Below, one piece after another: positions 46,878 through 49,035 of a stretch of DNA of 64,000 nucleotides (its first letter is position 1; every line of letters starts with the position of its first letter). The DNA lies in NCBI GenBank assembly GCA_028817895.1, contig JAPPOQ010000032.1:1-64000 (forward strand). Reading direction: 5' to 3'. This stretch comes from Ahrensia sp. GTDB lineage: Bacteria; Pseudomonadota; Alphaproteobacteria; Rhizobiales; Rhizobiaceae. A model generated the notes under the pieces. The model worked only from the letters and a program-made list of their open reading frames with translations, was not told the origin of the DNA and did not search any database. The position numbers and the translations under genes are program-made.

Positions 46878-47474
46878 GTGCCCCGTTTCGCCCTTCTGAT
46901 TTTTGGATCGATTCTGCTTTCAGGCTGCAATGCAACCGTAAGCACGACGTCGACTCATGGCTTGGCAGTCGAAACACTGAAAGTCTGCTCAGGCTATGGA
47001 TGCAAAATCAGCGACACGTTTCAGCCCAGCGAAGAAGACGTTGAGCGCTTAGTCGCCATTATGAAAGACGGCGCAGCGTCGCCGGAAGCGGAAAGGACCG
47101 CCATCAAGCGTGCGATTGCCGAGTTTGAGACGACCGCACGTCGCCATCTTCGCTATCAGCCTGATGTCAAAAAGGCGTATCAGAAACATCTGGGCAAGCG
47201 CGGGCAGATGGATTGTGTCGATGAATCGCTCAACACGACCGGATATCTGGCCTTTATGGCGCATCGCGGCCTGTTGAAGCACCACCGCGTGCGCAAGCAC
47301 TATGCCGAGCGCGGGCTGATCGTGGACGGGCGTTACCCGCACAAATCTGCCGTGATCATCGATTCTGCCGAAACAGTCTGGACCGTCGACTCCTGGTATC
47401 ACGATGACGGTGTGGAGCCGGAAATCATGCGCCTTTCGGCTTGGCGCAAAGTGCGCGACAGCTTTTCGATCTGA
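46878..47474 (+). CDS. Lipoprotein of unknown function
   Basis: 198 residues from GTG 46878, preferred because GGAG is 8 bases upstream; the longer frame opens at TTG 46860. Lipoprotein signal with lipobox LLSGC (FGSILLSGCNAT). The mature protein has Cys pairs (VCSGYGCKI, QMDCVDES) and a conserved-looking centre YLAFMAHRGLL. Ends with a strand-rich TVWTVDSWY segment, reminiscent of the secreted rhizobial YcgN-type proteins, but no family is claimed. Confidence 0.75.
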   Translation: MPRFALLIFGSILLSGCNATVSTTSTHGLAVETLKVCSGYGCKISDTFQPSEEDVERLVAIMKDGAASPEAERTAIKRAIAEFETTARRHLRYQPDVKKAYQKHLGKRGQMDCVDESLNTTGYLAFMAHRGLLKHHRVRKHYAERGLIVDGRYPHKSAVIIDSAETVWTVDSWYHDDGVEPEIMRLSAWRKVRDSFSI

Positions 47475-47497
47475 GCACTTTCGATGTGAGCAAAGAA

Positions 47498-47533
47498 AAA
47501 CGCCTGTCGGGGGAGGAGTTCCGACAGGCGTTT
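47498..47533 (-). terminator. Intrinsic terminator of the DUF1127 transcript
   Basis: A perfect 13-bp stem with a 10-base loop is followed on the minus strand by TTTTTC. It forms the last of the three hairpins of the RNA described for 47498-47607. Confidence 0.85.
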
Positions 47534-47607
47534 CATGTTGCATTCAGCGGCTTTGGGAGGAGGATTAGCTGCTGAATGTGTTCACCGGGCTGGGAGGAGA
47601 ATGCCCG
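47498..47607 (-). ncRNA. Three-hairpin CUCCUCCC RNA at the 3' end of the DUF1127 mRNA (CcsR/cuckoo-like)
   Basis: On the minus strand three hairpins follow the DUF1127 stop in series. Stem CGGGC/GCCCG (47586-47607), stem CATTCAGC/GCTGAATG extended to about 11 bp (47541-47578), and a 13-bp stem AAACGCCTGTCGG/CCGACAGGCGTTT (47498-47533) that runs into TTTTTC, an intrinsic terminator. Each loop shows CTCCTCCC (complements at 47592-47599, 47555-47562 and 47511-47518), an anti-Shine-Dalgarno sequence. DUF1127 plus serial hairpins with this loop is the description of the CcsR/cuckoo sRNA family of alphaproteobacteria, which is processed from the mRNA 3' end and acts in stress responses. Confidence 0.8.
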
Positions 47608-47617
47608 CTGAATCTCG

Positions 47618-47764
47618 TTATTTCTTCACGGCGCGGCGAGCCACAAGCGGAATATCGCCACGTGAGATACCCAGATCGTCCAACTCACGGCTTGTGAGGC
47701 TGTAGAGTTCGTTGCGCGTTTGGCGGACGCGATTCCAGCTGCGGATGCTGTCAAAGATACCCAT
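47618..47764 (-). CDS. DUF1127 small Arg-rich protein
   Basis: 48 residues from ATG 47764, with AAGGA 9-13 bases upstream. DUF1127 signature LTSRELDDLGISRGDI near the C terminus, preceded by an Arg-rich helix (SWNRVRQTRNELY). The best-studied member, CcaF1 of Rhodobacter, is an RNA-binding protein whose mRNA is the source of CcsR sRNAs. Here the same arrangement follows in the 3' region. Net positive charge fits RNA binding. Confidence 0.92.
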   Translation of the reverse strand: MGIFDSIRSWNRVRQTRNELYSLTSRELDDLGISRGDIPLVARRAVKK

Positions 47765-48045
47765 GATCTTCGTCCTTTCGGTCTTGCCTCGGTGAGAGGC
47801 TGTTGTCTGTTTCGGAACCACCTCGTTCCGTTGAAGCCAAGATATGTTGCGCCGCACAAATTACCAGCGCAAAGCGTTCAAAAGTGATATGCATTAGCTG
47901 CATGCCTCTTTTCACGGGTCTGTAACAATTCGCTGGTAGCGCACTGATACCCGCTCGAATTTGCGCCATCGGCTTAACCGAATGTCAGGCCTGTTGTCGC
48001 ACTCTAGCGCGCATCACACCCCTCGATGCCATCGGATCGGCGCCA

Positions 48046-49035
48046 ATGCTGGAATACAAAGAGCTCAAGCTGCTTCTGGCGCTCGTGCTTTTCCTGCCTC
48101 TTCTGGCAATCTTCGTCTGGTTGGCTGTATCACCTGTTGATCTTTCCGCGGGCACGGTTCCCGCATTGGCAAAGCTGACAGTGAGCGTGGTTGTGCTGTT
48201 TGCGGTGAGTGTGTGGATCAGACATCGCTTGAGAGATGATGAAGACCGTGTTGCGATTGGACTCAAGCGTGTTTGCAAGGCCTTTCACCTCATCTGCTAC
48301 GCGACGCTGCCCTTGACGATGAGCAATTTCTACATGCTGGCGGGCAGTTATTTGGGCGCCGACTATGCGCCACCGATCATCGACCCGCTCTTGGCACATT
48401 TCAGCTTCGCGATTGGCTTTGACTGGGTCGCGACGGTCTCATGGATGAACGCCTCGCCACTGGTCGCGCAGAGTCTGACTTGGGCCTACTGGTCAACGCT
48501 GGTGCAGACACCGCTGCTGATCTTCGTCCTGGCGGCGCTTGGACGCGCAGACCGGCTGCTTGAATATATCAGCCTCTATGCGCTGACGGGATTCGTCACC
48601 GTTCTCATTGCCATTTTCTATCCGGCACTCGGAGCCTATCCGTTCTATCAACCGGACTTTTCCGTGTTCTCAAATTTTGGGGCCGGAACGGGAGTCTATC
48701 ACATGCTGGAGGTGGAAGCATTGCGCGGCCCGGGTGCGGCGCCCGTGAATCTCGTCGAGCCGAAGGGCATCGTAACCTTCCCGTCTTTCCACACGGTTCT
48801 CGCTATCATCGCAACCTGGTCCATGCGAGACATCAAATACGTCTTCAAACCGCTGCTTGTGCTGAACGTCTGGGTCATAGTCTCAACTATTCCGGTCGGC
48901 GGGCACTTTCTGGTCGATTTGCCAGCCGGGGCAGTGCTGGCGGCCGCTGCGATCTGGCTGACCGCCCGGCTCATGTCACCGAAACCTTCTGACGTGCGCA
49001 AGCCTGCTGCTGTTCCGATGCCTCAGCAGGCTTAG
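48046..49035 (+). CDS. PAP2-family phosphatase/transferase
   Basis: 329-residue membrane protein with about six to eight helices. PAP2 catalytic motifs 2 and 3 are seen as TFPSFHTVLA and GGHFLVDLPAG; motif 1 (KxxxxxxRP) is replaced by a longer loop, as in the PAP2_3 or inositolphosphorylceramide-synthase-like branch. The likely substrates are lipid phosphates or phosphoinositol lipids. It is convergent with uvrA, with a 12-bp gap. Confidence 0.85.
   Translation: MLEYKELKLLLALVLFLPLLAIFVWLAVSPVDLSAGTVPALAKLTVSVVVLFAVSVWIRHRLRDDEDRVAIGLKRVCKAFHLICYATLPLTMSNFYMLAGSYLGADYAPPIIDPLLAHFSFAIGFDWVATVSWMNASPLVAQSLTWAYWSTLVQTPLLIFVLAALGRADRLLEYISLYALTGFVTVLIAIFYPALGAYPFYQPDFSVFSNFGAGTGVYHMLEVEALRGPGAAPVNLVEPKGIVTFPSFHTVLAIIATWSMRDIKYVFKPLLVLNVWVIVSTIPVGGHFLVDLPAGAVLAAAAIWLTARLMSPKPSDVRKPAAVPMPQQA

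Follow-up and report, generated by a model that had tools for sequence, protein, structure and literature searches.

The locus described here probably yields a LysR-activated DUF1127 mRNA whose 3′ UTR is an ar14-type ("cuckoo") anti-Shine-Dalgarno sRNA. It was found in a 64,000-nucleotide stretch of an Ahrensia sp. genome, referred to below as the window, where its neighbours are uvrA and trmFO. This reading was built from gene and RNA models, predicted folds, a conserved promoter site, and comparison with loci of related bacteria.

The DUF1127 gene and its 3′ RNA

The elements of the locus, in order along the minus strand, are as follows.

47889-47902, minus strand: LsrB/VtlR-type activator site TGCAGCTAATGCAT (alignment of the genus loci)
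47863..47902, minus strand: activator site plus its conserved extension to GCGCTGGT (genus alignment, pattern and matrix scores)
47837..47846, minus strand: presumed -10 region CATATCTTGG, placed by alignment with the relatives' conserved CTATTTG and weak in the window itself
47771..47778, minus strand: Shine-Dalgarno region of the DUF1127 gene, AAAGGACG (sequence)
47618..47764, minus strand: gene for a DUF1127 protein of 48 aa (Pfam PF06568, 51.5 bits, E 8e-14), with the TAA at 47618-47620
47495..47617, minus strand: ar14/cuckoo RNA of 123 nt (Rfam RF02344), its first base being the next after the DUF1127 TAA
47581..47612, minus strand: hairpin 1, octamer at 47592-47599 (predicted fold)
47541..47578, minus strand: hairpin 2, octamer at 47555-47562, with the full CCUCCUCCC (predicted fold)
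47498..47533, minus strand: hairpin 3 and intrinsic terminator, octamer at 47511-47518 (predicted fold, compensatory changes)

An earlier note on this DNA had called the coding sequence a DUF1127 gene, and the Pfam match agrees. The note had placed the RNA element at 47498-47607. The hairpins are indeed there, but the element is wider because it starts at 47617, the base after the TAA. The closest matches to the 48-aa protein in other genomes of the genus were 64-72% identical. The window genome contains three DUF1127 matches, counting one that falls short of the cut-off, and 1/3 carries an ar14 RNA.

The octamer CTCCTCCC was found three times in the window, always on the minus strand, at the three places listed above and nowhere else. 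The count alone is unremarkable, because 1.46 copies are expected by chance in 64 kb on both strands and 16/100 shuffles contained at least three copies anywhere. A rough Poisson estimate for three octamers on one strand within 100 nt is ~1e-6. The hairpin region folds at -51.8 kcal/mol (z -7.8), and 0/200 shuffles were as low. In the predicted fold CUCCUCCC lies in the loop of each of three hairpins just 3′ of the DUF1127 stop, while the full nonamer CCUCCUCCC is confined to loop 2. Hairpin 3 leads into a T-run and is a predicted terminator; a simple terminator scan that accepted only loops of 3-8 did not list it. Three consecutive hairpins with the same octamer in each loop and a terminator as the last had been claimed before. 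In the predicted fold all octamers are in loops and the T-run follows the third hairpin, as claimed.

The claim that the stems differ and the loops are the same was only partly right. The loops are alike, and the stems change among relatives, but hairpins 1 and 2 have the 5′ arm ATTCAGC in common. The 5′ arm of hairpin 1 pairs with the 3′ arm of hairpin 2 at -15.7 kcal/mol, versus -16.7 kcal/mol with its own arm. The common arm and the cross-pairing suggest that the stems of hairpins 1 and 2 are related, perhaps through duplication, and allow an alternative fold of longer range.

Assignment of the RNA to a family

The Rfam model ar14 (RF02344) matched at 79.7 bits (gathering score 58.8, E 9.8e-13) over model positions 1-123 of 123. 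The predicted fold has the three hairpins of ar14, with the anti-Shine-Dalgarno motif unpaired in each. The features of the Cuckoo family and the CIN1 locus are likewise present: several hairpins with a common loop motif and variable stems, judged from the predicted fold and the relatives, and an adjacent short DUF1127 gene. Two other families were rejected. The CcsR1 model (RF02791) scored 18.6 bits, far under its cut-off of 65.3 (E 0.064), and ar7 scored 35.6 bits versus 60.

An NfeR1-type stand-alone gene would have its own promoter directly 5′ of the RNA. In the window the DUF1127 stop directly precedes the RNA and the activator site sits beyond the gene; therefore it was classed as ar14/cuckoo and not as an NfeR1-type gene. 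By its model match the window RNA is a predicted ar14, from the branch of the "cuckoo" RNAs to which NfeR1 belongs. The family named in the earlier note, CcsR/cuckoo, with a covariance-model search as its check, is thus right for the cuckoo part, through ar14/NfeR1, and unlikely for the CcsR part.

A second ar14 match in the window genome, on contig 18 (C18:51449-51575), scored 46.7 bits, and no Rfam family was above its cut-off for this RNA. Its two motif loops, its plain terminator and the LysR-family gene before it led us to read it as AbcR-like.

Conservation in relatives

Orthologous loci were collected from the window's genus, the Ahrensia group, which includes Ahrensia sp. R2A130, and beyond it. 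One best DUF1127 locus was taken per genome, leaving out the second copies L094 and L095. Loci L096-L105 duplicate other loci and L108 duplicates L078, and each was counted once. L109, a long protein of another kind that had matched by chance, was dropped. No DUF1127 match was found in G302 and G303, genomes that are 61% and 87% complete.

Three motif runs were present in 14/15 distinct orthologous loci. The runs were found in 12/13 of the distinct loci parsed first, and two further loci (L078/L108 and L106) also have three, with altered motifs in L078. By genus, 13/15 loci come from the window's genus, and 12/13 of these have the RNA; the remaining two are L106 and L107. In L076 (G308, a 0.9 Mb genome) the DUF1127 gene and the promoter site are kept and the RNA hairpins are lost. 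Across 12 loci, 35/36 CCTCC runs are within predicted hairpin loops, the exception being hairpin 1 of L074.

The stems of the same 12 loci were subjected to an arm-swap test. Own arms beat swapped arms in 124/132, 121/132 and 122/132 swaps for hairpins 1, 2 and 3, respectively. Hairpin 3 was then aligned over ten loci, L068 and L107 being left out for their long insertions. In this sequence alignment 96.8% of cells are paired and 6 pairs are changed on both sides. Slid controls, a comparison that favours a structure taken from one row, gave 36.5-48.6% paired and 0-2 pairs changed on both sides. Among 500 shuffles, which do not keep relatedness, 0/500 reached the paired percentage, the doubly changed cells or the covariation score. 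Two of the five measures did not beat the shuffles: 70/500 reached 6 doubly changed pairs and 460/500 reached 11 further pair types.

Across the relatives, then, the predicted loops are kept while the stems drift with compensation. The earlier note had made its reading depend on loop conservation in close relatives, and this is what the 14 loci have, with stems that are changed yet paired.

In a genus member, a second, diverged DUF1127 gene (L122, G304:C27) is followed by an ar14 RNA of 65.2 bits, in which two motif loops and a plain terminator were seen by eye.

A LysR-type site upstream of the DUF1127 gene

Alignment of eight genus loci revealed a conserved TGCA-N5-TGCATGGCT-N4-TGCA, then TTTGCGCTCGT, and in most of them CTATTTG ~17 nt later. 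The predicted VtlR/LsrB regulon site of the window is in the LsrB form, with TGCA-N6-GCAT exact; the Agrobacterium VtlR form GCAT-N3-TG-N3-T is only partly present, the TG missing. The extended pattern TGCA-N5-TGCA-N19-GCGCTNGT occurs exactly at two places in the window genome, the DUF1127 locus and the AbcR-like RNA, and at two more with one mismatch allowed. In 15 genus genomes with at most one mismatch, 35 matches were found versus 9 for the reversed control (0 in the window genome). The five exact matches in these genomes are at four DUF1127 genes and at the window genome's AbcR-like RNA. A promoter matrix was made from 12 promoters, 11 from the genus plus L107, with the window left out. 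It gave 28.2 for the window and 24.1 for the AbcR-like promoter; the best of 60 base-shuffled 400-nt stretches reached 0.06.

The earlier note had proposed a search for a stress-sigma promoter upstream of 47764. No RpoH-like or stress-sigma promoter was seen upstream of the DUF1127 gene by eye; what was found there is the LsrB/VtlR-type LysR site. A sigma-70 scan of 47000-48200 gave no match.

LsrB is reported to bind TGCA-N6-GCAT on the nfeR1 promoter and to activate nfeR1 (PMC10746234). Agrobacterium VtlR is reported to activate abcR1 and the small-protein gene atu1667 directly, with the consensus GCAT-N3-TG-N3-T, and atu1667 is described as the orthologue of the VtlR-activated small proteins BAB1_0914 and BAB2_0512 (PMC7486931). 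These two are given as DUF1127 proteins in an account in which Brucella VtlR activates AbcR2 and three DUF1127 genes (PMC12595884). Because the site is conserved and LsrB/VtlR activation of nfeR1, abcR1 and DUF1127 genes is published, a LysR-type activator, presumed to bind here, is the best-supported regulator rather than a stress sigma factor.

A near-palindrome, TTGTGCGGCGCAACA, is present at 47845-47859, after the LysR-type site and before the -10 region, with TTGCACTGCAACA at a like place in the AbcR-like promoter. It resembles stretches near phasin genes and may be a PhaR-type operator.

Loci with and without the small gene

Matches to ar14 were found in 97/101 genomes sampled from the family and 63/199 sampled from the order. 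The best match of 58 genomes, which is not a random sample, was read with DUF1127 called by profile. A DUF1127 stop lies at most 60 nt upstream of ar14 in 20/58 loci. trmFO follows on the same strand at most 1.5 kb away in 25/58, uvrA lies at most 1.5 kb upstream in 9/58, and both are present in 6/58. Three loci of one genus (L046, L047 and L050) have the ar14 RNA between uvrA and trmFO, and no DUF1127 gene was found in them. Three of another genus (L039, L040 and L042) have DUF1127 genes and ar14-like motif triplets arrayed in tandem ahead of trmFO.

A 26-base site matrix was applied to the 400 nt upstream of the 58 ar14 loci, with a 99% null of 7.1 and a null maximum of 15.5 (1160 shuffles). 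In the loci without a DUF1127 stop directly upstream, 30/38 have a site above 7.1, ending 40-177 nt before the RNA, twelve of them at 40-47; in 19/38 the site is 40-80 nt ahead. In the DUF1127-linked loci 11/20 have a site above 7.1, ending 243-348 nt before the RNA. Sites above the null maximum were found in 15/38 and 8/20 loci, respectively, and one more, L012, ties. A control stretch downstream of the RNA passes 7.1 in 15/58, which is perhaps explained by tandem copies. The greater distance between site and RNA in the DUF1127-linked loci fits the small gene. The promoter and the RNA would then stay the same, and the gene would lie between them in some loci and be missing from others. This suggests that NfeR1-type genes and DUF1127 mRNAs may be two states of one design.

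The motif was also seen behind phasin genes. One or two anti-Shine-Dalgarno 3′ UTR hairpins follow 9/18 of the phasin genes read in the genus (L163-L166, L168-L171 and L175), and in some of these the first hairpin, by eye, overlaps the stop codon. In another genus a complete ar14 with three hairpins (82.9 bits) stands behind a phasin gene (L355, G008:C76). Such hairpins were absent from the window genome's own three phasins and from the 30 best-scoring ones read in the rest of the family. No paper linking phasins to the anti-Shine-Dalgarno motif was found by title among the matches listed.

A broader proposal, which we hold with about even confidence, is that LsrB/VtlR loci of Rhizobiaceae-type bacteria may follow a design in which site-RNA (NfeR1) and site-DUF1127-RNA are interchangeable. 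Gain or loss of the small gene would turn a stand-alone sRNA into a 3′-UTR sRNA and back. The same RNA module stands behind phasin genes, and therefore it may travel as a movable 3′ module among carbon- and stress-related mRNAs.

Candidate targets

The pattern GGGAGGA-N4-11-ATG was found at 76 sites in the window genome, versus 3 for the reversed control. Frames shorter than 60 aa were dropped before the target count (24/75 loci; 28/68 in the control AAGGAGA-N4-11-ATG). This left 51/75 loci with a frame of at least 60 aa, and at least 17/51 encode solute-binding proteins of the ABC, TRAP or TctC type. The control pattern gave 68 sites and 40 such frames, with at least 3 solute-binding proteins among the matches listed. 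The one-sided Fisher p for enrichment is 0.0026, an approximate value because only 20/51 and 10/40 proteins, chosen by eye for a likely role in transport or likely export, were scanned singly, the others being taken from tallies of the best 25 of 78 and the best 25 of 43 families. The predicted targets are most likely mainly solute-binding-protein mRNAs, an enrichment that cannot be separated from AbcR because AbcR has the same motif. The enrichment agrees with NfeR1, whose predicted targets are reported to be mostly transporters (PMC7143759).

Proposed mechanism and alternatives

In the mechanism that we favour, an LsrB/VtlR-like LysR regulator would bind and switch on the promoter, and it would also serve the AbcR-like sRNA of the same genome. 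Transcription would start near 47834 and give a transcript of ~340 nt with its 3′ end at hairpin 3, from which the 48-aa DUF1127 protein would be translated. By analogy with relatives, the transcript would be cut close to the stop codon, perhaps by RNase E as with CcsR, and an RNA of ~123 nt would be released. The CUCCUCCC in its three loops would pair with GGGAGGAG-like Shine-Dalgarno sequences, chiefly of periplasmic solute-binding-protein mRNAs, and block translation, a mechanism shown for NfeR1 in Sinorhizobium. Under this mechanism the loops would be alike because each is a target-binding site, and the stems would drift with compensation because keeping the loops open is all that is required of them.

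A CcsR-type locus like that of Rhodobacter has the same order of DUF1127 gene, anti-Shine-Dalgarno hairpins and terminator; there the mRNA is RpoH-controlled, and RNase E together with the locus's own DUF1127 protein yields separate one-hairpin sRNAs. CcsR1-4 are reported to come from the ccaF1 3′ UTR, with an RpoHI/RpoHII promoter (PMC8625941, PMC10253847). We consider such a locus unlikely in the window, where the CcsR1 model scored far under its cut-off, the upstream conservation is that of a LysR-type site with no RpoH-like promoter seen by eye, and the protein has 48 aa versus 71 aa for CcaF1 (PMC10253847).

Still less probable is a reading in which no regulator is released and the hairpins stabilise or terminate the DUF1127 mRNA, or act as a sponge that takes up ribosomes or AbcR targets. 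The RNA does run from one base after the stop to the terminator, and no promoter of its own was found before it. However, the loops are conserved and not the stems alone, relatives have versions without a directly preceding DUF1127 gene, 19/38 of them with a site 40-80 nt ahead, and NfeR1 is described as an established regulator that acts in trans (PMC10746234). That the hairpins are palindromes arisen by chance around a repeated pyrimidine octamer can be practically dismissed. Two hairpins share an arm, so part of the repetition may be simple duplication, but the relatives' loci refute chance: three motif runs recur in 14/15 distinct loci, the arm-swap and pair counts favour real stems, and the Rfam E value points the same way.

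Comparison with known systems

On sequence grounds the window RNA is a predicted new member of the ar14/cuckoo RNAs in the Ahrensia group, and what is added is the promoter link. One locus would join the LysR (LsrB/VtlR) regulon, the DUF1127 proteins, whose function is disputed, and the NfeR1/cuckoo sRNAs. If other species, too, have such an RNA at the end of their VtlR-controlled DUF1127 genes, phenotypes ascribed to the small proteins could partly be those of the RNA. In the open-access literature, no paper treating both NfeR1 and DUF1127 was found.

Cuckoo RNAs of the CIN1 locus carry CCUCCUCCC-type loops on stems that vary. As early as 2011, according to PMC3927594, hairpins were described that share their loops but differ in their stems, and cuckoo-type RNAs beside DUF1127 genes are already published as the CIN1 locus (PMC10253847). 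The window resembles the Cuckoo family and the CIN1 locus in its several hairpins, CCUCCUCCC-type loops, variable stems and position next to a short DUF1127 gene, but has the full nonamer in a single loop. One DUF1127 protein, CcaF1, is reported to bind RNA, and proteins of this kind have also been described as PhoR partners (PMC12501420), so the 48-aa protein may or may not assist its own RNA.

The window RNA resembles ar14 (RF02344; NfeR1/Smr14C2 of Sinorhizobium meliloti) in its full-length model match, three hairpins, anti-Shine-Dalgarno loops, terminator and upstream LsrB-type site. NfeR1 is described as one 123-nt transcript of its own (PMC10746234), whereas the window RNA would be the 3′ end of a DUF1127 mRNA with the site beyond the gene. 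SmelA075, an RNA of the same kind, is reported in several processed forms (PMC3927594). CcsR1-4 and CcaF1 of Rhodobacter sphaeroides (RF02791 for CcsR1) also combine a DUF1127 gene and anti-Shine-Dalgarno hairpins in one transcript; they differ from the window in the longer protein and in the RNA model, and they have an RpoH promoter, whereas a LysR-type site was found in the window and no RpoH-like promoter was seen there by eye. The AbcR sRNAs (ar15) and the VtlR/LsrB regulon share with the window the anti-Shine-Dalgarno motif and the kind of promoter site, but AbcR stands alone, and in the AbcR-like RNA of the window genome there are two motif loops and the terminator is plain.
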